Source: a virus
Length of the DNA: 22,439 nucleotides
Reading direction: 5' to 3' (one strand)
Virus record (IMG/VR): IMGVR_UViG_3300042294_004974
Span: 1-22,439 of that record
The notes beneath the pieces were generated by a model. That model saw nothing but the letters and a program-made list of their open reading frames with translations. It was not told the origin of the DNA and searched no databases. This document shows, piece by piece, positions 6,940 through 21,211 of the stretch. The position numbers and the translations under genes were made by a program. How positions within the stretch are numbered: the stretch's first letter is position 1; each line of letters begins with the position of its first letter.

Positions 6940-9900
6940 TATTCAAATAGTAGGTGAAATTTTAAATAGTTCAACTATTTCACGTTATTCTGACCAAGAT
7001 ACTAATCTTATAGCATCTCAAGAGATACAAGATGATTTTGGAGCTAGTAATGATTATATTGAATATTATATATATGACGCTGGAGGTAATTTACTAAATT
7101 CAACATATGAATATAATGATTTTAAATTACCATCAAATTCAAGTTTAACACCACCCCCAAACTCCTCTACTTCAAATACAATAAATTCAATCCCTTCAAC
7201 TGATGTAGGTATTGTTTCTAATACAAATACCCAATCAGGATCATTATATCCTATTATTGAAATAGATCCAGTTCAAGATTTACAAAATAATGAATACACC
7301 TCAGGAGAATTTGTTGTTCAATATAATTTTTTTAGAAATAAAATTGGTAATCCAACTTCTTCTTTCTTCATTAAAGAAATATCCCCAGATAGAACAGAAA
7401 TAGGAATAATATCTACTACGTTAACGAATGAAGAAATAGAACAAGGTTTTAATACATTAGTTAGTGAAATAAGTGGATCTATATATTTTGTAGATTATTT
7501 ATTAAATTTTGGTAATAATCAACAAGTATTAACTGTTAACGTAGCTTTAAATAAACTTGATTCTGGATATGAAATGTATTTTAAATTATACGATCCACTT
7601 CCTGAAGATATAGTTGAAAAAACATCATTATGGGTTGTTGATGAAAAAGTAGATCCTTATACTTTTAATATTAATTTAGATACTTTAATTTTACCACCAC
7701 CAAGTTTACAATTAAGAGGTCCTAATTTTAATATTCCTATTGAACAACAAGGAACTATATCTACATCATATCAAAATTATGATAATTTATTAAATAATTT
7801 ACAATCAATACAAAGTTCTTCGTATAGTAAAATATTAAATTTACTTACAACTCAAAGTATTGATATAAATGTAAATTATACTAATTTTTCTGAATTTTCA
7901 TTTTTTGGATCTTCTAAACAACGTTTAGAAAATTTTTATACAAAAGTAAAAGAAATTGAAGATTATAACAATCTTATAAATACTTATGTCCCTAATGTTG
8001 CTACAACAAGTAGTCTTCAATTAGAAATTTCTTCATCTAGAAATAATATAAATGATATAGTTTCTAAATTTGATGGATTTGAATATTATTTATATTTTGA
8101 ATCAAGTTCATATGCTTGGCCTAAATTAAACTCTACACTCCCTTATACTTTACTCTCTACCGGAAGTGCTATTGCATTAAATTGGTATAATGCATACACT
8201 AGTTCAGCAGAATCATATGATAATAATAACGTCAATTTATTAAAAAATACATTACCCTCCTTTATATTAGATGACTGTTCTAATGATCAGTATATAGTTT
8301 TTATTAATATGATGGGCCAATATTTTGATAATATTTGGATATTCTTAAAAGCAATTACTGATGTTAATTTAGCTAATAATAATTTAGAACAAGGTGTATC
8401 TAAAGATTTAGTATACCATGTTTTAAAATCATATGGTATTAAATTATATAATTCTCAAGGTGGTGAAGATTTAGACCAATTTTTAATTGGTGCTAATTCA
8501 GGTAGTGCTGTTTTTGATAATAATTTTAGTCCTACTGGAAGTTATTTAAATAATATTCCTCGTAAGGATTTATTATCTGAAATATATAAACGTATTTACC
8601 ATAATTTACCTTATTTAGTAAAAAATAAAGGTACTGTTGCTGGTGTTGAAGGATTAATTACTACATTTGGTATTACAGGTAGTATATTAAATACTAAAGA
8701 ATTTGGTGGTGGAACTAAATCTTCATTACTTAAAGGATATAATAACGAAAAAGTAAGAATAGTAGACAATACTATTACTGGTAGTGTATTATCTGCATTT
8801 ATTCCTTTACAACAATCACCTACAGCATCTAATGAATTTAGAGATGATGATTTAAACTATTTAGATGTATCATTTTCCCCACAAACACAAATTGATACTT
8901 ATATTTCAGGAGCTATTGCTTCTAATAATCCTACATTTATTTTAGATGATTATATAGGGGATCCTAGACAACAATATGATAATGTATATCCTGATTTAGA
9001 AACACAACAAAAATTATATTTTGAAACTGGTGTACCTGGATATAGTGGATTTACTGGTTCATTTATGGATTATAATGGGTTTATCCGTTTAATTCAATTC
9101 TTTGATAATGCTTTATTTAAAATGATAACTGACTTTGTTCCTGCAAGAACAAGTTTATCAACAGGTGTTACAATAAACTCCCCAGTATTAGAACGTAATA
9201 AAGTATCATATGCTGAACCATTAGTTAATAATCAATTTGTTTATGATGCTGATTATAATGATAGTACTAGAATTAGTCCTCAATATGGTCAATTATATGA
9301 TAATCTTACTGGTTCTAAAGCTGCATTTTTTACAGGAGAATTAAGTGGTAGTGGAATAGATATATATAATAATTATTTTGAACCAGCTAATAGTAATTAT
9401 TATTTACATCCAACATCAAGTTTAACAACTAATGATTTAGATATATTTAATCATTCTGACTTTAATGTAATGTTAAATAATGTTACTAGTAGTAGATTAT
9501 CATTAACAAGACAAGGAATTGAATATATTATAGGCAATACTGGTAGTTTATTAAATAGAACTATACTAACTCCAGTTCAATTACAAGATTCATATCAATC
9601 ACTTACTTCATATAATACCTCACGTTACAGTGGAAGTAAAGTAACAAGTGCAACTTATAACACTTATACAATAGGTGATGAATCATTTGGAAAAACAGCG
9701 GCAATTGATCATCAAGTTAGAAAAATTGCTTTATTTTCTGAAATAAAATCAAGTTCATTATTTAGTAATTATAATAATGTTGCTATAAAATATTTAGTAG
9801 ATGAATTTGGTGGTCTAACAGAATTAAACCAAAGAAATGAAAATTGGGAGGAAGTTCAAAATACATTTAAACAAAGCTCTACTTTAGCAATTTCACAATT

Positions 9901-12028
9901 TGATAACCAAAAATACAGTAATCAAAAAAATACTGATGGTGTTAAATTAATATATAATAGTGGTTATTCATATAGTCCTGTTCTTTATTTATCAAGAGAT
10001 ACTGTTACTTTAAATTTTAGAACAGAAGGATTTAAACCCGATATTAGTGTAACAGCTCTTAATAGTGGATCTAATAATATTGTTGGATATATTCCCAATG
10101 GTTTTCCATTAAGTAGTACTTATAAAATAATTTCTAATTTTGGAAATTTTGATGATGAACCTACAGGACTAAATAATTTTTACACAGGTTCTTCAGGTAC
10201 AGATAATGTTAATTTATTACCAACATACAGTTCAAGTCTTTCTACTCAATATGCTATTCAAGTAACAGCTTCTATTCAAGTAACAGAATCAATTACTCAA
10301 CAAGGATTTGTAACATATGAATTAGGAGCATATAAACATAATGCCTCTAACCCTTTAGATTTAGCAAACTCAGGTAGTTATTTAGTATCGTCTGTTTCTG
10401 CTAGCTATGTTAATCTACTTGCTCAAACATATACTAATGCTTCAGGATTAGTAGGTATGAATGTTACTCAATCATTTACTTTTTCTACATTATCAGCTTG
10501 GAATACTTTTACTAAAAAAACTCCTTCTAACAGATTAATCGTTACTGTAACAAACTCAACCCGTTTTGTATCTGGTACTAATAGATACTCTACTACTTTT
10601 TTAGTAAATATAAATGAACCTTTACAAGGTAACGAATTTATAGAAATAGGACATGCTAATGGTACTGTTTTTCATATAATTGTAGATGAAATTATTGTTG
10701 ATAATGGTGAGATAAATTCTCAAATTATAAAATTATCTACAAGAATTCAAGACATAATACAATTACCTACAAGTACATTTAATACTTGGATACAAGGAGG
10801 ACTTTTTACTGGTGTTGGAATTTCAGAACTAACTTCTAATTCATTTAAATTTACCTTTGAACATAGAGAAACATTTAGTAATAGTTTAGTAGGAGGTGCT
10901 GCTTATACAAGTTATTTTGGTATAGCAAATGAAGGAACATTTACTCCTGGAAGCGACATATATGATGGTTCAACATTATTAGTATCTGCCGGAACTACAC
11001 TATATAAATACACTTTAAAAGATATGGATCTAACCACAGGTGCTGGTACAACTAGAATCTTATTTTCTAAAGATAGTGAACTTCAACTTAGATATAAAAA
11101 CAATCCATCTTCAACGACATCATTAAGATATATACCAAATTTTATGGATGCTGGTACTTATGATAATTATGTATTATTTTCAACATTTTATCTTCCAATA
11201 GCAGATATGAATGGTTTATATAATATACCTGATACTTCTCTTGTTGCTATAAAGGATAGTGGTAAAACGTTAAATCTTAATTTATCATTAAATAATTATT
11301 TTATAGCAGAAGGAGATAAATTAACATTTATTTTAAAACAAAAAGCAATTTCCCTTCCATGGAATGGATTTTATAAAGCCCAATTTAATTCTAATATACA
11401 AAATAAAATTAAAGTAAGTGGTGATTCTAATATTAGAGCAATTACAAACGATAATATAGCTTTACTAAACCCAACATTAAGTTTAAGACAAGATCCATCA
11501 AATAATAATTTTACTACCTTATATCTTAATTCAGATTTAAGTAGCGTATATACCCCTCTTACTTCATCAGGAGACCAAATATTTTATGCACCTAATATCG
11601 AAGGTGATATATCAGATATTTATAGTAAATATGGAGACGTTGATTATGCTTTTCATATGAATATAGGTGATTCTATTATTTTAAAAGATGCTAGAAATTT
11701 CACCTATGAATTTGGAGTTAAAGAAGTAGTTTATGATAGCGTTAATAAATGCTATGGATTTAAATTACTTTCAACAATGGATTCAACTTTATTTAATGAA
11801 TTATTTTTTGATACTGATAATAAAAGGTATTTTGAAATATTATATTTAAATAAAATTAAAGACGAAACTAACGTTCTAGCAGTATTTACTAAAAAAGATG
11901 GTAGAACATCATATGGATTTATTATTCCTGATAATTTACATCCTGATGTTTTAGCAAATATAGATACAATAACAAAAGAAGTAAAACAAAAATTATTAGC
12001 TGATCAACAAGGAACAGTAACAGGTTAA
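6932..12028 (+). CDS. Giant baseplate/tail structural protein, possible gp7/P2 gpI-like wedge part
   Basis: 1698 residues, the largest gene in the window. No enzyme motif is seen. About residues 442-470 hold F-I-L-D-D-C-S-N-D-Q-Y-I-V-F-I-N-M, and about 556-580 hold N-L-P-Y-L-V-K-N-K-G-T-V-A-G-V-E-G-L. The K-G-T-x-x-G motif before a glycine-rich helix resembles P2 gpI-type tail proteins, which correspond to T4 gp7 in the wedge. About 725-740 hold a conserved-looking F-K-M-I-T-D-F-V-P-A-R. The C-terminal two thirds look like a series of Ser/Thr/Asn-rich beta modules typical of tail peripheral proteins. The N-terminus overlaps the preceding small gene by eight bases. A gp7-like wedge fused to peripheral or fibre-anchoring modules fits position and motifs, but is not proven. 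It could instead be a long side-fibre base. Confidence 0.5.
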   Translation: MANIQIVGEILNSSTISRYSDQDTNLIASQEIQDDFGASNDYIEYYIYDAGGNLLNSTYEYNDFKLPSNSSLTPPPNSSTSNTINSIPSTDVGIVSNTNTQSGSLYPIIEIDPVQDLQNNEYTSGEFVVQYNFFRNKIGNPTSSFFIKEISPDRTEIGIISTTLTNEEIEQGFNTLVSEISGSIYFVDYLLNFGNNQQVLTVNVALNKLDSGYEMYFKLYDPLPEDIVEKTSLWVVDEKVDPYTFNINLDTLILPPPSLQLRGPNFNIPIEQQGTISTSYQNYDNLLNNLQSIQSSSYSKILNLLTTQSIDINVNYTNFSEFSFFGSSKQRLENFYTKVKEIEDYNNLINTYVPNVATTSSLQLEISSSRNNINDIVSKFDGFEYYLYFESSSYAWPKLNSTLPYTLLSTGSAIALNWYNAYTSSAESYDNNNVNLLKNTLPSFILDDCSNDQYIVFINMMGQYFDNIWIFLKAITDVNLANNNLEQGVSKDLVYHVLKSYGIKLYNSQGGEDLDQFLIGANSGSAVFDNNFSPTGSYLNNIPRKDLLSEIYKRIYHNLPYLVKNKGTVAGVEGLITTFGITGSILNTKEFGGGTKSSLLKGYNNEKVRIVDNTITGSVLSAFIPLQQSPTASNEFRDDDLNYLDVSFSPQTQIDTYISGAIASNNPTFILDDYIGDPRQQYDNVYPDLETQQKLYFETGVPGYSGFTGSFMDYNGFIRLIQFFDNALFKMITDFVPARTSLSTGVTINSPVLERNKVSYAEPLVNNQFVYDADYNDSTRISPQYGQLYDNLTGSKAAFFTGELSGSGIDIYNNYFEPANSNYYLHPTSSLTTNDLDIFNHSDFNVMLNNVTSSRLSLTRQGIEYIIGNTGSLLNRTILTPVQLQDSYQSLTSYNTSRYSGSKVTSATYNTYTIGDESFGKTAAIDHQVRKIALFSEIKSSSLFSNYNNVAIKYLVDEFGGLTELNQRNENWEEVQNTFKQSSTLAISQFDNQKYSNQKNTDGVKLIYNSGYSYSPVLYLSRDTVTLNFRTEGFKPDISVTALNSGSNNIVGYIPNGFPLSSTYKIISNFGNFDDEPTGLNNFYTGSSGTDNVNLLPTYSSSLSTQYAIQVTASIQVTESITQQGFVTYELGAYKHNASNPLDLANSGSYLVSSVSASYVNLLAQTYTNASGLVGMNVTQSFTFSTLSAWNTFTKKTPSNRLIVTVTNSTRFVSGTNRYSTTFLVNINEPLQGNEFIEIGHANGTVFHIIVDEIIVDNGEINSQIIKLSTRIQDIIQLPTSTFNTWIQGGLFTGVGISELTSNSFKFTFEHRETFSNSLVGGAAYTSYFGIANEGTFTPGSDIYDGSTLLVSAGTTLYKYTLKDMDLTTGAGTTRILFSKDSELQLRYKNNPSSTTSLRYIPNFMDAGTYDNYVLFSTFYLPIADMNGLYNIPDTSLVAIKDSGKTLNLNLSLNNYFIAEGDKLTFILKQKAISLPWNGFYKAQFNSNIQNKIKVSGDSNIRAITNDNIALLNPTLSLRQDPSNNNFTTLYLNSDLSSVYTPLTSSGDQIFYAPNIEGDISDIYSKYGDVDYAFHMNIGDSIILKDARNFTYEFGVKEVVYDSVNKCYGFKLLSTMDSTLFNELFFDTDNKRYFEILYLNKIKDETNVLAVFTKKDGRTSYGFIIPDNLHPDVLANIDTITKEVKQKLLADQQGTVTG

Positions 12029-12087: not shown

Positions 12088-12753
12088 ATGGCAATATTAA
12101 ATAACAGCACAGTAACAGTAGATGCTATTTTAACCACAAAAGGACGTGAATTATTAGCACGTAATGATGGTTCCTTTCAAATTACCCAATTTTCTTTAGG
12201 AGATGATGAAATTGATTATACTTTGTATAATCCGTTACACCCTTCAGGTTCAGCATTTTATGGTGAAGCAATAGAGGCAATGCCTGTAATTGAAGCTTTC
12301 CCTAATGAATCTCAAATAATGAGATACAAATTAGTAACTTTACCTCGTGGTACAAGTAGACTACCAGTAGTTAATTTAGGATATAGTAGCATTATTTTAA
12401 AACAAGGTGCTTCATTAACAATTACTCCTCAAACACTTAATTATTTAGGTGCTACTTCAACATTTGAAGCTAATGGATACATTGCTACCGTAGCAGATAG
12501 TAGATTATTATCATCATTCCAAGGAACTGGTGTAACAACAACTACTACTGGTATTACAGATTTAAATACCACTACTGGCACAGTATTATCGTTAAGTCAA
12601 CTAGGTACTTCGTTTACCATAACCGGTACTACAATTAATACTTTATTTGGATCAACGTTGACTTCATTATCAACTACTATAACAGTTATTGGTAGAGATA
12701 GTGGTGCTAGAGTAACAATTCCATTAAACATACAAAAAGTATCAACAACCTAA
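12088..12753 (+). CDS. Structural protein of the fibre/decoration region, unknown family
   Basis: 221 residues. The N-terminal half is distinctive (T-V-D-A-I-L-T-T-K-G-R-E-L-L-A-R, then F-S-L-G-D-D-E-I-D-Y, and later Y-K-L-V-T-L-P-R-G-T), reminiscent of conserved virion proteins where the first 30 residues form a docking helix and strand. The C-terminal 100 residues are Thr/Ser-rich and almost lysine-free (T-G-V-T-T-T-T-T-G-I-T-D), probably a beta domain similar to bacterial Ig-like folds. It is separated from the giant gene by 59 bases containing a promoter-like motif and is followed 13 bases later by another structural gene. It could be a fibre-attachment or collar protein. I cannot name the family. 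Confidence 0.5.
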   Translation: MAILNNSTVTVDAILTTKGRELLARNDGSFQITQFSLGDDEIDYTLYNPLHPSGSAFYGEAIEAMPVIEAFPNESQIMRYKLVTLPRGTSRLPVVNLGYSSIILKQGASLTITPQTLNYLGATSTFEANGYIATVADSRLLSSFQGTGVTTTTTGITDLNTTTGTVLSLSQLGTSFTITGTTINTLFGSTLTSLSTTITVIGRDSGARVTIPLNIQKVSTT

Positions 12754-13743: not shown

Positions 13744-16700
13744 ATGTCATCATTCAAAAAACTCAACTCTTCAGATGTTACGATAGTACCATATGCTGCC
13801 AATAAACAATGGGACTTAGATTTTTGTGCTTATCCAACCGATGACTCTTACATAACAATTTATAAAGGTACTAAATTAACTAGTAGCTTTGATCCTGAAA
13901 CAGATCCAAAAACCGATGGACAATATGAAAGATTAATATATGATTCTATTAATCATTTATTTTATCAATCATATAGTGGGAGTTTATTAAACACCTCTTC
14001 TTTAGCTAATTCAATATTTTATGAATCAGCATCTGAACAAAGACGTACTCAATCTTATTTTAATTATAACGAAAATCCTGCATTAATTAAAAATTTCCCA
14101 TCAGGAAATTTAGAAGGTATTCGTGTACTAGCTATTAATCAAGGAATATTTGGTTCACAAGTATTACCTTACAATTTTATACTATCTTCATCAGCTTATT
14201 TTGTTGTTGATGATGGTAAAGGAAATTTATTTGATATTGCTAATGCTATTGGTAGTGATTATGTTAGTGCTAGTTATGTTTCTGGAGGATATTTTACAGA
14301 ATTTATAACAGGATCTGATCATATTGGAAATGTATTTTATGCTCATGGTTTAGGAGTGATTACTGATCAAAATTATCAGTTAATGTTCCCATTACCTCCA
14401 CTAGCTAATAACGATAATTATACTTATAAATTAAGTGATCCTCAAAAACCAATTACTCCATTAGATAATGACGTAGCTAGAAGTGGTACATTAGTACCTT
14501 CTTCAATAATATTATCTGGTAGTCAATCATCCTTTTTTAATATTCAATCTAATGGTACTGGTAGTGTAACAGCTAGTGTTACTGGTTTATATAAAACATA
14601 TTATACTGTTGGAGCTAGTTTAGGTAATGGATGTCCTAATTTAATAAGTAATCAAGCTTTAATTAAAGTAAATATTACTGATCCGGATTGTGATTTTACA
14701 TTTATAGCAGTAAGAGTACCAGATCCATCACCATCTCCTACTCCTAGTATTACTCCAAGTATTACTCTATCAAATACCCCAACTCCCACAACTACTCCAA
14801 GTTTAACACCATCAATTACATCCACACCAAGTATAACTCCATCAATTACATCTACACCAAGTATAACACCATCAATTACATCCACCCCATCACCTTCACC
14901 TATTGATTGTAGTGTTAACGGGGGATCTGCTGTAATTATTCCACCATCACCTTCACCATCACCTTCAATATCACCTTCAATAACACCATCAATATCTATT
15001 AGCTCAACACCTTCAATTACTCCTTCAGTAACCCCTTCATTAAGTATAAGTGCTACTCCATCAGTAACTCCTTCTATTAGTATTAGTACTACACCTTCAA
15101 TAACACCTTCAATATCTATTAGTCAAACTCCAAGTATAACACCATCAATAACTCCTTCAATATCTATTAGTCAAACTCCTAGCATAACACCTTCAATAAC
15201 ACCTTCTATTACTATAACACCAAGTATAACACCATCAATTACACCTACAATTTCAGTTAGTCCTACTTTAGAAGCTTCTCCATCAACAACTCCTTCAGTA
15301 ACTCCTTCAATTACACCAAGTATTAGTTTAACCCCTTCAATAACACCTAGTATTTCAATTACTCCTAGTATATCAATCACTCCGAGTATATCAATTACTC
15401 CAAGTATAACAATAACACCAAGCATTACACCGTCAAATTCAATTACACCTAGTATTAGTTTAACACCTTCAATTACCACGACACCATCAATAACAATTAC
15501 TCCTAGTATTACTAGTACACCATCAGTAACTCCTAGTATTACTATTACGCCATCAATTACACCTAGTATATCAATAAGTGCAACACCATCAATTACACCT
15601 AGTATTACTATTACCTCAACACCATCAATAACTCCTTCGATATCAATAAGTACAACACCAAGCATTACTCCTAGTATTACAATAAGTGCAACACCATCAA
15701 TTACACCTAGTATTACTAGCACACCTTCAATTACACCTTCAATATCTATAAGTGCAACACCTTCGGTAACTCCTTCAATATCTATAAGTGCAACACCAAG
15801 TGTAACACCTTCAATTAGTATATCTAGTACACCAAGTATTACCCCTAGTATATCTATTAGTGCAACTCCTAGCGTAACACCAAGTATTTCAATATCAAAT
15901 ACTCCTAGTGTAACACCTAGTATAAGTATATCTAGAACACCTTCAATAACTCCTTCTATTAGTATATCAAAAACACCTTCAGTAACACCATCAATTACTC
16001 CATCACCATCACCAGCAGATATAGGAACTATAACTGTAAAAAACATAGAAGACTCACCAGGTTGTGCTAGTACATCAGCTGCTAGAAATGGTACTTATGA
16101 TTTATTTGCCAGTGGTAATAATACAGTATCAGGATCAATAGCTGTAGATGTTACATTTGCTGGTTCTATTTCTTCTGATTGCTACGGTAGTGTATCATTA
16201 TATGTTAATAGCACAACAAGAGGAAATTTATTTGCAGGTAGTGATGGTAATAACGATAATCCTACTGTAACATCAGGCACATATACAAGACAAGCAGGAG
16301 AAAATATAAGTATAACAGGATCTTTTGTCGCAGCTGAACCTCCTCCTCCATGTTTTGTTGCCGGAACTATGATTACTTTATCTGATGGAAATCAGGCAGC
16401 AATTGAAACATTATCAGTTGGAGTTGAATTAGAATCTTCTTTAATTAATACCCTAGAAGATACTAATAACGTTGCTGCTTTATATGAATGGTCTTCAAAT
16501 GAATTATTAGAAACTAGAACTACATCTACTATAGCTAAATTCTACCCTGAAGATGTTACTAAAACTATTATTGTAAATAATGGTCTATTAGAAGCTACTG
16601 AAAATCACACCCAGTTGGCGAAAGTTGACGATTCATGGAGAATGATTAGTATGGAAGAATTAACAGTTGGTAATATATTATATGCTTCTAACGGTGATTT

Positions 16701-16818
16701 AATACCTGTAACTAGTATTGAAATTAATACAGAACCTAGAACAGTTTACAAATTAACATTATCGGAAGAGTCTCATACTTACTTTGCTAATAACATATTA
16801 ACTCACAATATTAAATAA
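13744..16818 (+). CDS. Stalk-type tail fibre/adhesin with Pro-Ser-Ile-Thr repeats and a C-terminal Hint domain
   Basis: 1024 residues in four parts. (1) Residues 1-327 are a non-repetitive head beginning F-K-K-L-N-S-S-D-V-T-I-V-P-Y, probably the virion-docking part. (2) Residues 328-758 are a long P-S-I-T-P-S-I-S-type stalk, interrupted at about 387-399 by a short Cys-containing segment (I-D-C-S-V-N-G-G). (3) Residues 759-869 are a beta module with S-T-T-R-G-N-L-F and T-R-Q-A-G-E-N-I, also present at the end of the 17203 gene. (4) Residues 870-1024 are a Hint/intein-like domain: C-F-V-A-G-T-M-I-T-L-S-D-G at 870, T-E-N-H at 952-955, and Y-F-A-N-N-I-L-T-H-N near the end. The stalk has almost no charged residues. 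The product is inferred to be a receptor-binding or adhesive fibre that may process itself. A SET-domain gene follows after five bases. Confidence 0.7.
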   Translation: MSSFKKLNSSDVTIVPYAANKQWDLDFCAYPTDDSYITIYKGTKLTSSFDPETDPKTDGQYERLIYDSINHLFYQSYSGSLLNTSSLANSIFYESASEQRRTQSYFNYNENPALIKNFPSGNLEGIRVLAINQGIFGSQVLPYNFILSSSAYFVVDDGKGNLFDIANAIGSDYVSASYVSGGYFTEFITGSDHIGNVFYAHGLGVITDQNYQLMFPLPPLANNDNYTYKLSDPQKPITPLDNDVARSGTLVPSSIILSGSQSSFFNIQSNGTGSVTASVTGLYKTYYTVGASLGNGCPNLISNQALIKVNITDPDCDFTFIAVRVPDPSPSPTPSITPSITLSNTPTPTTTPSLTPSITSTPSITPSITSTPSITPSITSTPSPSPIDCSVNGGSAVIIPPSPSPSPSISPSITPSISISSTPSITPSVTPSLSISATPSVTPSISISTTPSITPSISISQTPSITPSITPSISISQTPSITPSITPSITITPSITPSITPTISVSPTLEASPSTTPSVTPSITPSISLTPSITPSISITPSISITPSISITPSITITPSITPSNSITPSISLTPSITTTPSITITPSITSTPSVTPSITITPSITPSISISATPSITPSITITSTPSITPSISISTTPSITPSITISATPSITPSITSTPSITPSISISATPSVTPSISISATPSVTPSISISSTPSITPSISISATPSVTPSISISNTPSVTPSISISRTPSITPSISISKTPSVTPSITPSPSPADIGTITVKNIEDSPGCASTSAARNGTYDLFASGNNTVSGSIAVDVTFAGSISSDCYGSVSLYVNSTTRGNLFAGSDGNNDNPTVTSGTYTRQAGENISITGSFVAAEPPPPCFVAGTMITLSDGNQAAIETLSVGVELESSLINTLEDTNNVAALYEWSSNELLETRTTSTIAKFYPEDVTKTIIVNNGLLEATENHTQLAKVDDSWRMISMEELTVGNILYASNGDLIPVTSIEINTEPRTVYKLTLSEESHTYFANNILTHNIK
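14725..16017 (+). repeat. Coding Pro-Ser-Ile-Thr stalk repeat, long block
   Basis: The encoded protein repeats P-S-I-T-P-S-I-S, P-S-V-T and S-A-T-P variants, mostly as 12-base (four-codon) steps. Longer super-repeats such as I-S-I-S-A-T-P-S-V-T-P-S recur in the second half. Synonymous codons vary widely: serine is written TCA, TCT, AGT or AGC, and threonine ACA, ACT, ACC or ACG. The DNA is therefore much less repetitive than the peptide. A non-repeat insert lies at about 14902-14940. Confidence 0.95.
16351..16818 (+). other. Hint/intein-like autoprocessing domain at the fibre C-terminus
   Basis: Part of the 13744-16818 gene. It begins at Cys870 after P-P-P-P and ends at His1021-Asn1022, followed only by Ile-Lys and the stop. 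Intein/Hint hallmarks are visible: block A C-F-V-A-G-T-x-I-x-L-x-D-G, block B T-x-x-H (Thr952, His955), a middle E-E-L-T-V-G-N-I-L, block F V-Y-K-L-T-L-S-E-E-S-H-T-Y-F-A, and block G H-N. At about 153 residues it is the size of a minimal Hint domain with no homing endonuclease. The residue after Asn is Ile rather than Cys, Ser or Thr, so normal splicing is not expected. Cleavage or ester formation at Cys870, as in bacterial intein-like domains, is the likelier outcome. Confidence 0.85.
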
Positions 16819-17202: not shown

Positions 17203-18240
17203 ATGCAAGTAACAATATCAGCAACTAGTATAGGAGGTAATGCAGGTCCGTTTACAATAACGGATAACCTAGGCAATACTATTGATACTGGCGTGACTAG
17301 ATCTCAAATACTTGCTGGGTATGTAGCAACGGTAAATGATGTCGCTAGTTCTATTAATTTGATAAGTAGTGGAATATGCACTAATACAACTAATATTAGT
17401 ATAATTTCTCCTCCTCCAACACCATCAGTAACACCAAGCATAACTGTATCTCCGTCAGTTACACCAAGTATAACTATATCACCCACAGTAACACCTAGTA
17501 TTACACTTTCACCATCAGTAACACCAAGTATATCTATATCACCATCAATAACACCTAGTATAACAATTACACCTACTATAACACCAAGCATTACTTCATC
17601 ACCTTCAGTTACACCTAGTATAACAGCAACACCAAGTATAACAGCAACACCTAGCATTACAACAACACCAAGTATTACACCAAGTATTACACCAAGTATT
17701 ACACCGAGTATTACACCAAGTATTACAATAAGTACAACACCAAGTATTACTCCAAGCATTACAATAAGTACAACACCAAGTATAACACCTAGTATTACAC
17801 CAAGTATTACAATAAGTACAACACCAAGTATTACTCCTAGTATTACAATAACACCTAGTGTAACATTAACACCTACACCAACCAGAACAATAACTCCAAC
17901 CCCTTCATTACCTTCAGCTACTGGTAGTTTAAGTATGAATTTAATACTAAACCCAGCATATGTAACAGGTACTGTTAGTGTAACTAAAAATTCAAATGCA
18001 TATTTAACTCGAAATAGTACTGGTAATACCTCAGGAATATTAGCTACTGGGGATAGTTTTGTAGCATCATTATCAGCAGGTATTATTTATGCTAGACAAT
18101 TAACTGTAGAAAGTAGTACAAGAGGTGTTTTATATGATGTAGCTACTGCTCCTGATGAAGGTGGTTTCTTAAATTATTCAGATACACGACAAGCAGGTGA
18201 AGATATAATTGTAAGTGCTGGAGTAGTAGATTTTGGTTAA
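17203..18240 (+). CDS. Second Pro-Ser-Ile-Thr stalk fibre protein
   Basis: 345 residues in three parts. Residues 1-69 are an N-terminal module (N-A-G-P-F-T-I-T-D, then I-L-A-G-Y and S-G-I-C-T-N-T-T-N-I-S-I) shared with the 18720 protein. Residues 70-238 are a P-S-I-T/P-S-V-T stalk with very few charged residues. Residues 239-345 are a C-terminal beta module with S-S-T-R-G-V-L and T-R-Q-A-G-E-D-I, matching the module before the Hint domain of the 13744 protein. It therefore looks like a chimera of the flanking stalk genes' end domains. No Hint domain is present. It starts at ATG 17203 after an A-rich leader and an ATATTTATA motif. The likely role is a minor fibre or an alternative receptor-binding protein. 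Confidence 0.68.
   Translation: MQVTISATSIGGNAGPFTITDNLGNTIDTGVTRSQILAGYVATVNDVASSINLISSGICTNTTNISIISPPPTPSVTPSITVSPSVTPSITISPTVTPSITLSPSVTPSISISPSITPSITITPTITPSITSSPSVTPSITATPSITATPSITTTPSITPSITPSITPSITPSITISTTPSITPSITISTTPSITPSITPSITISTTPSITPSITITPSVTLTPTPTRTITPTPSLPSATGSLSMNLILNPAYVTGTVSVTKNSNAYLTRNSTGNTSGILATGDSFVASLSAGIIYARQLTVESSTRGVLYDVATAPDEGGFLNYSDTRQAGEDIIVSAGVVDFG
17410..17916 (+). repeat. Coding Pro-Ser-Ile-Thr stalk repeat, second gene
   Basis: Four-codon repeat. At 17668-17727 the DNA itself is almost perfectly tandem: CCAAGTATTACA occurs five times in a row with a single CCA-to-CCG change. Just after it, a unit encoding I-S-T-T-P-S-I-T-P-S-I-T recurs three times up to about 17840. 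This part looks recently expanded, unlike the codon-scrambled array in the first stalk gene. Confidence 0.93.
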
Positions 18241-18719: not shown

Positions 18720-20012
18720 ATGAGTAAGAGTTTTTTATTAACATTATCAGGAACAACACCCGGCCCCTTTGATATTTATCTGGATTCAGTAAGTGCGGGC
18801 AATCTTCTATTAAGTAATATTGATAGTGGAAGTTTATTAGGTGGTTATATGATTACCACCCCCAATACTTCTTCATTTGTTATATTAAAAAATAAAGCAA
18901 ATGGGTGTGAAAATACTTTTACAGTTAGTATTGTTGATCCATCCCCTTCAGCAACACCATCATTAACACCATCTAATACTCCAAGTATCACCCCTAGTAT
19001 TACAATCACACCAAGTATAACTCCATCTATTACACCATCAATTTCAATTACTCCAAGTATTACACCATCAATTAGTATTACTCCAAGTATTCCTGCTTCA
19101 ATTTCTTCAACACCATCAATAACTCCTACAAAAACACCAAGTATTACACCAAGTATTACACCAAGTCTTCCATGTTTAAGTAAATTACATGACTTTGTAA
19201 TTTCATCTGTTGATATTTTTGATGCAACCGGAAACGTATTCTTTAGTACCGAAAACAATAAAGTAAGTATTTTTTATGATAATGTAGATGGAGACTCAAT
19301 TTTTACATCATATACAACTCCTGGTACTCGTACATTCTGTGTTAATACAACAATGAATACTGTATCTGCTAGTTTATATTATTATAAAAATGATACACTT
19401 ATATTCTACCCAAGCACTGTATCTACAGTAACTAACACTGGAGTTTGCTGTACAGGTAATCCAGGAACATCACCATCCCCAACTCGTTCACCTTCAAAAA
19501 CACCTAGTGTAACACCTTCCATCACATTAACACCAAGTATATCACCTTCAATAACACCAACAATCACTGTTAGTCCTACTTTTGGAGCTTCTCCATCTGC
19601 AACTCCTTCAGTAACACCATCAATTACAGTAACACCAAGTATAACACCATCAATTTCAATAACACCAAGTGTTACAAAAACACCAAGTATTACACCGTCA
19701 CCATCAAGACCAAATTTACGCTATATAACCACAGATACTTTTGCTTATACTAATCAAGTTCCTTTAAATTCAATTGATTACTGTTATCAAGATTTTTATG
19801 ATTTTACTATATCTATTACAGATGTAAGTTGTAATCCAGTATCATCCCACCCAGATTATACATTTACTATATTAACTAATGGAATAAATCCTCAAAATTA
19901 CACAATATTTAATGGTTCATCAAGTGTCACTATTACTTATATGAAATCTGATGGATGTACAGGTAATACAGAGACAATATCAGTTAACTCAGCTCCAGTA
20001 GCTCTTTGTTAA
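18720..20012 (+). CDS. Third Pro-Ser-Ile-Thr stalk protein, with two stalks and three globular modules
   Basis: 430 residues. Residues 1-73 are the N-terminal module shared with the 17203 protein (P-G-P-F-D-I-Y, then L-L-G-G-Y and N-G-C-E-N-T-F-T-V-S-I). A first stalk follows at about 74-151. Next is a cysteine-containing beta module at about 152-250, ending G-V-C-C-T-G-N-P-G. A second stalk spans about 251-331, and a last beta module about 332-430 ends P-V-A-L-C. The several cysteines in the globular modules could form disulphides or bind metal. The second stalk contains the unusual S-P-T-F-G-A-S-P-S-A-T-P-S-V, nearly matching S-P-T-L-E-A-S-P-S-T-T-P-S-V in the 13744 protein. No Hint domain is present. 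It is likely a fibre or adhesin. The stop is followed two bases later by the next ATG. Confidence 0.66.
   Translation: MSKSFLLTLSGTTPGPFDIYLDSVSAGNLLLSNIDSGSLLGGYMITTPNTSSFVILKNKANGCENTFTVSIVDPSPSATPSLTPSNTPSITPSITITPSITPSITPSISITPSITPSISITPSIPASISSTPSITPTKTPSITPSITPSLPCLSKLHDFVISSVDIFDATGNVFFSTENNKVSIFYDNVDGDSIFTSYTTPGTRTFCVNTTMNTVSASLYYYKNDTLIFYPSTVSTVTNTGVCCTGNPGTSPSPTRSPSKTPSVTPSITLTPSISPSITPTITVSPTFGASPSATPSVTPSITVTPSITPSISITPSVTKTPSITPSPSRPNLRYITTDTFAYTNQVPLNSIDYCYQDFYDFTISITDVSCNPVSSHPDYTFTILTNGINPQNYTIFNGSSSVTITYMKSDGCTGNTETISVNSAPVALC
18939..19172 (+). repeat. Coding Pro-Ser-Ile-Thr repeat, first stalk of the third gene
   Basis: Repeats of P-S-I-T and P-S-I-S with varied synonymous codons. 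The block ends at L-P-C, where a cysteine-containing module begins. Confidence 0.9.
19470..19712 (+). repeat. Coding Pro-Ser-Thr-rich repeat, second stalk of the third gene
   Basis: A second block, beginning S-P-S-P-T-R-S-P-S-K-T-P-S-V. It includes a stretch at 19569-19625 that is close at DNA level to 15256-15312 in the first stalk gene (six differences in 57 bases by eye). Confidence 0.9.
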
Positions 20013-20443: not shown

Positions 20444-20746
20444 ATGGCAATAACTCACACAGGATCCTTTAATTTATCATTCAAAAATGAGCACATCATT
20501 TATGAAAATGAGGTACGTTGTGTTGTTAAAGAAAGTGAATTTAACCTAAGTTATAATCCATCCTTAACATCAGACGAAAGTGGATCTCTATATGGATTTG
20601 CAACATCATCATCATTTAATCCTTACGTTACAACATTAGGATTATATAATGATAATAACGAATTACTAGCAGTAGCTAAATTCGGAAAACCACTTCTAAT
20701 ATCTCCAGATACAGATATGACGTTTGTGGTTAAATACGATTTATAA
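20444..20746 (+). CDS. Small structural protein, stand-alone copy of the module ending the 12767 protein
   Basis: 100 residues, nearly all of it one module: V-V-K-E-S-E-F-N-L-S-Y-N-P-S-L, then Y-V-T-T-L-G-L-Y-N-D-N-N-E-L-L-A-V-A-K and F-G-K-P-L. The same order occurs at residues 247-323 of the protein encoded at 12767-13738. The stand-alone form suggests the module folds by itself, perhaps as a fibre-docking or decoration subunit. It is the last structural gene before the nuclease and primase. A duplication or module transfer is implied. Confidence 0.65.
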   Translation: MAITHTGSFNLSFKNEHIIYENEVRCVVKESEFNLSYNPSLTSDESGSLYGFATSSSFNPYVTTLGLYNDNNELLAVAKFGKPLLISPDTDMTFVVKYDL

Positions 20747-20761
20747 AATAAAAATAAAGTT

Positions 20762-21211
20762 ATGGCTCAAATTACAGTTGATGATTTAATCAACAATGAA
20801 AGTTTTGATATTAATGAATATGAAGGTTATATCTATATAACTACAATTCTAGATACTGGTAGAAAATATATTGGTAAAAAGAATTTCTTTCACAATACTA
20901 ACGTTAAATTAGGTAAAAAAGAATTAGCTAATTTACCTACTGCTCGAGGAAAAAAACCAACTAAAAAGAAAGTTACTAAAGAATCTGATTGGAAAACATA
21001 TTATGGTTCTGCTCAAGAAATCAAAGACAGTGTTAAACAATACCCAAAAGAACGCATTACACGTACTTTAATTCGTCTGTGTAAATCCAAGAAAGAGTTA
21101 ACATATTACGAGTGTAAATACTTATTTGATTATAATGTATTAGAACCTAATAGTGGGTTTATTAATGATAATATACTAGGCAAGTTTTATAGTAAAGACT
21201 TGGTTGTCTGA
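20762..21211 (+). CDS. GIY-YIG nuclease, Seg-like, of T4-type phages (putative homing endonuclease)
   Basis: 149 residues. The GIY-YIG core is at the N-terminus: G-Y-I-Y-I-T-T at 22-28 and G-R-K-Y-I-G-K-K at 33-40. A basic region follows (K-K-P-T-K-K-K-V-T-K), then the conserved E-S-D-W-K-T-Y-Y-G-S at 74-83. T-Y-Y-E-C-K-Y at 114-120 contains Glu117 as the likely metal-binding catalytic glutamate, and the C-terminus reads N-D-N-I-L-G-K-F. This arrangement is common in T4-like phages, annotated as Seg-like endonucleases. It lacks an obvious separate DNA-recognition domain, so true homing activity is uncertain; a role in DNA processing is possible. It lies at the junction between structural and replication genes. 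It is one of two genes here that stop with TGA. Confidence 0.82.
   Translation: MAQITVDDLINNESFDINEYEGYIYITTILDTGRKYIGKKNFFHNTNVKLGKKELANLPTARGKKPTKKKVTKESDWKTYYGSAQEIKDSVKQYPKERITRTLIRLCKSKKELTYYECKYLFDYNVLEPNSGFINDNILGKFYSKDLVV

Follow-up and report, generated by a model that had tools for sequence, protein, structure and literature searches.

The question raised by this locus is what an intein-like self-processing domain does when it forms the last domain of a phage fibre. The window, the whole stretch of viral DNA analysed here (22,439 nucleotides (nt), positions 1 to 22,439 of IMG/VR record IMGVR_UViG_3300042294_004974), carries a fibre gene, fibre A, whose product ends in a Hint domain only two residues ahead of the stop codon. 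On balance, the end of fibre A is best explained as a type-A bacterial-intein-like (BIL) autoprocessing domain which, together with a small SET gene, forms a mobile two-gene fibre-tip cassette. An earlier note on the same DNA had proposed a complete Hint at the extreme C-terminus of a phage fibre; fold, profile and 37 relatives all agree with it, and the fibre is baseplate-associated. The hallmark residues (Cys870, Thr952/His955 and His1021-Asn1022, followed by Ile-Lys and the stop) lie exactly where that note had placed them. It did not mention the SET gene 5 nt downstream, an invariant lysine at position +2 behind the Hint (Lys+2), or a second fibre (fibre B) with a related module.

The Hint assignment of the fibre A end is no chance resemblance. 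The domain scored 28.5-30.1 bits against the Pfam profile PF07591 (PT-HINT), above the gathering cut-off of 27.7, and an AlphaFold model built from 20 sequences had a predicted local distance difference test score (pLDDT) of about 90 across most of the Hint. The model matched Hint folds, the best solved structure being Tetrahymena BUBL1 BIL2 (6y75) with Z 20.4 over 138 residues at 1.8 Å (VIA-align), followed in the same comparison by the C. thermocellum BIL (Z 19.1), the Ssp DnaB intein (18.5) and Hedgehog (17.9). A profile of ten relatives also ranked the BILs ahead of any intein (BIL2, E 2e-10; C. thermocellum BIL, E 4e-8). PMC4031507 assigns the splicing steps to Cys1, to Thr and His of block B, and to the Asn at the C-terminus. 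Fibre A has the full catalytic set, and among 37 distinct relatives Cys1 was conserved in 36, with the block-B Thr/Ser, the block-B His, the block-F His and the terminal His-Asn present in every one.

Judged by sequence against the published definition (PMC4031507), the fibre Hints would be type-A BIL-like, and neither inteins nor Hedgehog domains: the Hint fold is that of two solved BILs, His-Asn closes the domain in 37/37 relatives, and Cys, Ser or Thr occurs at +1 in none. They share variable flanks with type-A BILs as well, but differ from them in standing at the very end of a phage protein, in the invariant Lys+2 and in the linked SET gene. A true intein was ruled out, as +1 (Ile in fibre A) is never Cys, Ser or Thr and the two residues behind the Hint do not make a C-extein in the usual sense; inteins (PF14890, TIGR01443) have the same fold and C-terminal motif, but the profile matches were weak and below threshold, and the fibre Hints have C-exteins of at most 2-12 residues in most cases and do not sit in a conserved enzyme site. 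Hedgehog proteins likewise carry a C-terminal Hint, but here the stop falls two residues past Asn1022, hence there is no sterol-recognition-like region and a terminal His-Asn-x-Lys stands in its place, which ruled out a Hedgehog domain. Although the PT-HINT cut-off was passed, release of a polymorphic toxin was also ruled out, since no toxin domain follows the Hint of fibre A. A frame-shifted continuation into the next gene was discarded, as the latter has a start of its own and encodes an entire SET domain, and trans-splicing with the displaced domain encoded at 20444 because the Hint is complete and a search for a second Hint within the window found none. Hints have been annotated automatically in tail-fibre genes of phage NCTB and of uncultured tailed phages; unlike the fibre A Hint, those of NCTB have neither HN-x-K nor a SET neighbour.

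The earlier note had suggested looking for related phages with the same end, and these were found: the Hint ends in THN-x-Lys throughout the family, with Lys at +2 in 37/37 distinct relatives. Eight different residues occur at +1 and 11 at +3, from where on nothing is conserved, and the tail behind the Hint spans 2 to 85 residues. In more distant fibre Hints the lysine is often at +1. We rejected the idea that Lys+2 is a by-product of the SET ribosome-binding site, because SET-less clades, whose tails are 5-85 residues long, keep it as well. For type-A BILs, splicing that needs no +1 nucleophile and proceeds via the free amine of the C-terminal piece has been reported (PMC4031507), and BIL2 is reported to form an isopeptide bond joining its N-extein to a lysine epsilon-amine (PMC8616854). 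The view that there is no C-extein to splice was thus too strong, given the invariant x-Lys and the reported splicing of type-A BILs. BIL2 lies between ubiquitin-like domains and has its acceptor lysine in the next domain, whereas the only invariant lysine of the fibre Hint stands two residues past it. For a ligation of the BIL2 kind, Lys+2 would be the putative acceptor, an assignment that we make tentatively and hold to be doubtful; alternatively, Lys+2 may have a structural role. In a separate observation, a phage structural protein of 1838 amino acids (aa) at locus L144 (loci are denoted by L numbers) contains at least six tandem Hints, and five of the junctions consist of a single Lys (HN-K-C).

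The protein encoded directly behind the Hint is a SET protein, with 36.0 bits against PF00856 (cut-off 22.4) and fold Z scores of 12.5 to the MLL1 SET and 11.5 to vSET. The catalytic Asn61 (NHS) and Tyr94 are invariant, and the GxG motif is present in the window SET. It resembles vSET (chlorella virus PBCV-1) and other lysine methyltransferases of the SET type in being a small single-domain protein; unlike them, it is linked to a fibre Hint, and GxG is lost in about half of the linked SETs. A SET gene directly follows the Hint in all 7 closest viral Hint loci. A reverse search with the SET alignment covered 58 viral and 14 genomic loci: the Hint was directly upstream in 11/11 close SET relatives (a set that includes the window, and in which L041 and L098 carry identical sequence), and no distant viral SET had an adjoining Hint, with two unrelated Hints found kilobases off. 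A DNA pattern search returned nine loci. On the tree, the SET label requires 4 changes, against 11.3 in shuffles.

The Hint-SET pair stands behind unrelated fibre bodies, in phages as well as in Flavobacterium genomes. The Hint was present in 17/299 sampled Flavobacterium genomes, some of which hold SET-coupled and SET-less copies about 6-8 kb apart. SET-less Hints follow Gly-rich linkers, whereas SET-coupled Hints join the tip directly, and SET appears to have been lost in the Flavobacterium clade with Gly linkers (support 100/99). At L119, a decayed SET relic occupies the slot behind the Hint, the SET having been lost. At two Flavobacterium collinsii loci (L147 and L148), S74 fibres are clustered with a DUF285 repeat protein and a VWA-like protein, in what may be a prophage or a tail-like particle; no head genes were recognised within the 30 kb read.

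Our results revealed that both members of the pair are maintained, and that they are exchanged together. The ratio of nonsynonymous to synonymous substitution rates (dN/dS) lay between 0.04 and 0.21 for the Hint, compared with 0.36 in the part of the fibre attached to it; SET had values of about 0.16-0.22 in the informative pairs, the pair L024-L026 having too few changes to carry weight. Hint and SET are under purifying selection, which is strong for the Hint. Hint and SET co-diverge, their distances being correlated (r = 0.875 over 12 loci, 0/5000 permutations), as would also be the case for a linked pair with shared ancestry alone. In the phage contig L026, the fibre body is L023-like and the Hint and SET are L024-like. 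The first breakpoint lies about 8-12 codons ahead of Cys1, and the sequence switches back close to where SET ends; only an island of 14 nt between the two genes departs from this pattern. This indicates that the cassette moves as a unit. Beside the recombination breakpoint, the otherwise intact L026 Hint has TGA at its Cys1 codon (6998-7000), so that this fibre stops just where cleavage would leave its end, although the TGA might be a sequencing error. Near the cassette of L024, at 8779-10553, a canonical intein (HN-C) with an apparent endonuclease open reading frame (ORF) interrupts a ligase-like gene that is intact in L023 and L026.

How could such a cassette work? Folding of the fibre would bring Cys870 and Asn1022 into the active site of the Hint. 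Once the fibre has folded, the Pro869-Cys870 bond would become a thioester by an N-S shift at Cys870, and Asn1022 would cyclise, cutting behind itself. The thioester might be resolved by water, giving a free tip that ends at Pro869, or by an amine of the retained Ile-Lys, either the alpha-amine (as in type-A BILs) or the lysine epsilon-amine (as in BIL2), so that Ile-Lys would be carried on the tip by a peptide or isopeptide bond. By thioester resolution and Asn cyclisation, the Hint would leave and the tip mature. The SET protein would bind the precursor or the product as a dedicated partner, in the simplest case methylating a lysine of the fibre or the Hint, or alternatively acting as a SET-fold assembly factor. 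We infer that the Hint is likely to be catalytically active, and it is probably absent from the mature virion. An action of SET on the fibre or the Hint is putative, a fair possibility that falls somewhat short of probable. A more specific version, in which the Hint would pass the tip carboxyl to the epsilon-amine of Lys+2 on its own or a neighbouring chain, so that the tip would become isopeptide-ended or cross-linked, with the neighbouring SET controlling this by methylating that lysine or the tip, appears rather unlikely.

Several points weigh against this explanation. In the window and in L002, the residue at -1 is proline (EPPPP|C), which is unfavourable there and expected to slow the N-S shift; a literature search on this feature found no paper, and a slow first step may postpone processing until assembly. 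The GxG cofactor motif is gone in about half of the linked SETs, and methyl transfer by SET is therefore not assured. Since SET-less relatives retain Lys+2, SET does not account for this lysine. Finally, with a two-residue C-extein, the fibre would gain next to nothing from splicing as such, unless the tail or the release is what counts. Of what the earlier note had claimed, the complete C-terminal Hint stood and the release of a mature tip from fibre A is still the best reading, with the proline unfavourable for its first step; its statements on splicing, on the Hedgehog likeness and on attachment to surface amines were not supported in the form given.

The last of these statements belongs to a Hedgehog-like transfer, in which a foreign nucleophile (a host-surface amine, a neighbouring fibre chain or a small molecule) would attack the tip thioester, leading to covalent attachment. 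A C-terminal Hint without a real C-extein would suit such a reaction, and for BIL2, conjugation of the N-extein to other proteins has been reported (PMC8616854). However, the nearest structures are BIL domains, no acceptor-binding region is present, and relatives run on up to 85 residues past the Hint; the conserved Asn and the x-Lys tail imply reactions on the C-terminal side too, which are absent in Hedgehog. Attachment to a host-surface amine was not supported here, the invariant internal lysine being a nearer acceptor, and the transfer as a whole seems improbable. The Hint might instead be a folding or trimerisation aid, placed like the S74 endosialidase chaperone and cut off as a by-product of maturation, with SET in the slot of a tail-fibre chaperone. 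It is consistent with this that an S74-like endosialidase chaperone domain comes directly after the Hint in L028 and L033, that S74 fibres are present in fibre clusters, and that the SET gene has the usual position of a fibre-assembly gene and swaps along with the fibre end. Yet the catalytic residues are conserved more than folding requires, Gly linkers ahead of the Hint in SET-less clades speak against rigid templating and, to our knowledge, the Hint folds as a monomer in solved structures; we regard a folding aid as unlikely.

That the Hint is retained in the virion and binds the receptor at the tip, its chemistry being incidental or slow, would fit the proline at -1 in the window and L002, the exposed site at the fibre end and a cassette swapping that recalls the swapping of receptor-binding domains. 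However, exposed receptor-binding ends usually diversify and no other part of the protein is as conserved as the Hint, which makes a retained tip quite improbable. A decaying selfish intein stranded at the gene end without a role, with SET as an unrelated hitchhiker, is very improbable: the Hint has a lower dN/dS than the attached fibre part, an active site kept in 37/37 relatives and no homing endonuclease, and it recurs, accompanied by the same SET partner, at the C-terminus of unrelated fibre bodies, even though the stop at the L026 Cys1 codon, the SET loss in L119 and the related tip module without a Hint in fibre B could be read as signs of decay.

Hint domains in phage fibres are already known from automatic annotation. 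A literature search for phage Hint with SET, or for Flavobacterium phage Hint, found no paper (most subscription journals being outside its reach), and no description of the C-terminal HN-x-K family or of the SET linkage was met in the literature searched. Among 50,697 phage records, there were only two distant Hint matches and one distant SET match. The Hint-SET pair is apparently an undescribed two-gene fibre-maturation cassette: a new variant of autoprocessing of the BIL type, its partner likewise undescribed. Phage fibre genes often contain Hint domains, and the HN-x-K family provides a defined, conserved and tractable case for their role, with a fixed C-terminal end and, as its cognate partner, a gene for an enzyme whose class mostly acts in the methylation of protein lysines. 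L026 without Cys1 and L119 without SET are natural knock-outs, and relatives occur in culturable Flavobacterium. SET may have its substrate in the fibre or the Hint; if the pair is active, it would represent a self-maturing receptor-binding tip and a new phage role for SET proteins, and might yield ligation tools without the need for a +1 Cys or Ser.

Table 1. Positions in the window of fibre A, its parts and related neighbouring features.
Feature	Position	Strand	Basis or remark
Fibre A, 1024-aa protein with C-terminal Hint	13744..16818	+	ORF translation; baseplate operon context
N-terminal domain, residues 1-209	13744..14370	+	Homologous to immuto gp166 residues 1-235, blastp E 1e-8
Ser/Thr-Pro-Ser-Ile repeat stalk, about residues 329-757	14728..16014	+	Read from sequence
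Beta-rich tip module, ends ...EPPPP directly ahead of Cys870	16015..16350	+	53% identical in L002
Hint, putative type-A BIL-like domain, Cys870-Asn1022	16351..16809	+	Profile, AlphaFold model, structure match, conservation
Cys870 (position 1), kept 36/37; TGA in L026	16351..16353	+	
Block B Thr952-x-x-His955; T or S 37/37, H 37/37	16597..16608	+	His955 codon at 16606
Block F His1011, 37/37	16774..16776	+	
Terminal His1021-Asn1022, 37/37	16804..16809	+	
Ile1023-Lys1024 x-Lys tail, then stop	16810..16815	+	Lys at +2 37/37; +1 never C/S/T
SET-domain protein, 110 aa	16824..17156	+	5 nt behind Hint stop; PF00856 36.0 bits, SET fold, Hint linkage
Fibre B C-terminal module, without Hint	17923..18237	+	Related to fibre A tip module, E 7e-4 (four-sequence comparison)
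Displaced C-terminal domain of gp166-like gene, own ORF	20444..20746	+	43% identity, E 3e-24

The genes upstream of fibre A match baseplate wedge families in profile searches and are syntenic with those of the Flavobacterium myophage immuto (wedge protein, 46% identity; gene at 12088, 62%). For the fibre A tip module, only one other contig carries a match. The C-terminal module of fibre B (17203-18240) resembles the module that precedes the Hint in fibre A, but the protein stops there, which is compatible with a tip that is complete without a Hint. This ORF and another fibre-like one (18720-20012) have the same Ser/Thr-Pro-Ser-Ile repeats as fibre A. The immuto gp166-like gene is split in the window: its N part opens fibre A and its C-terminal domain has an ORF of its own 6 kb downstream. 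Three PSIT-repeat fibres, the Hint, SET and small genes lie between the two halves. Behind the fibre block, a gene for a SegE-type GIY-YIG endonuclease is found at 20762-21211.
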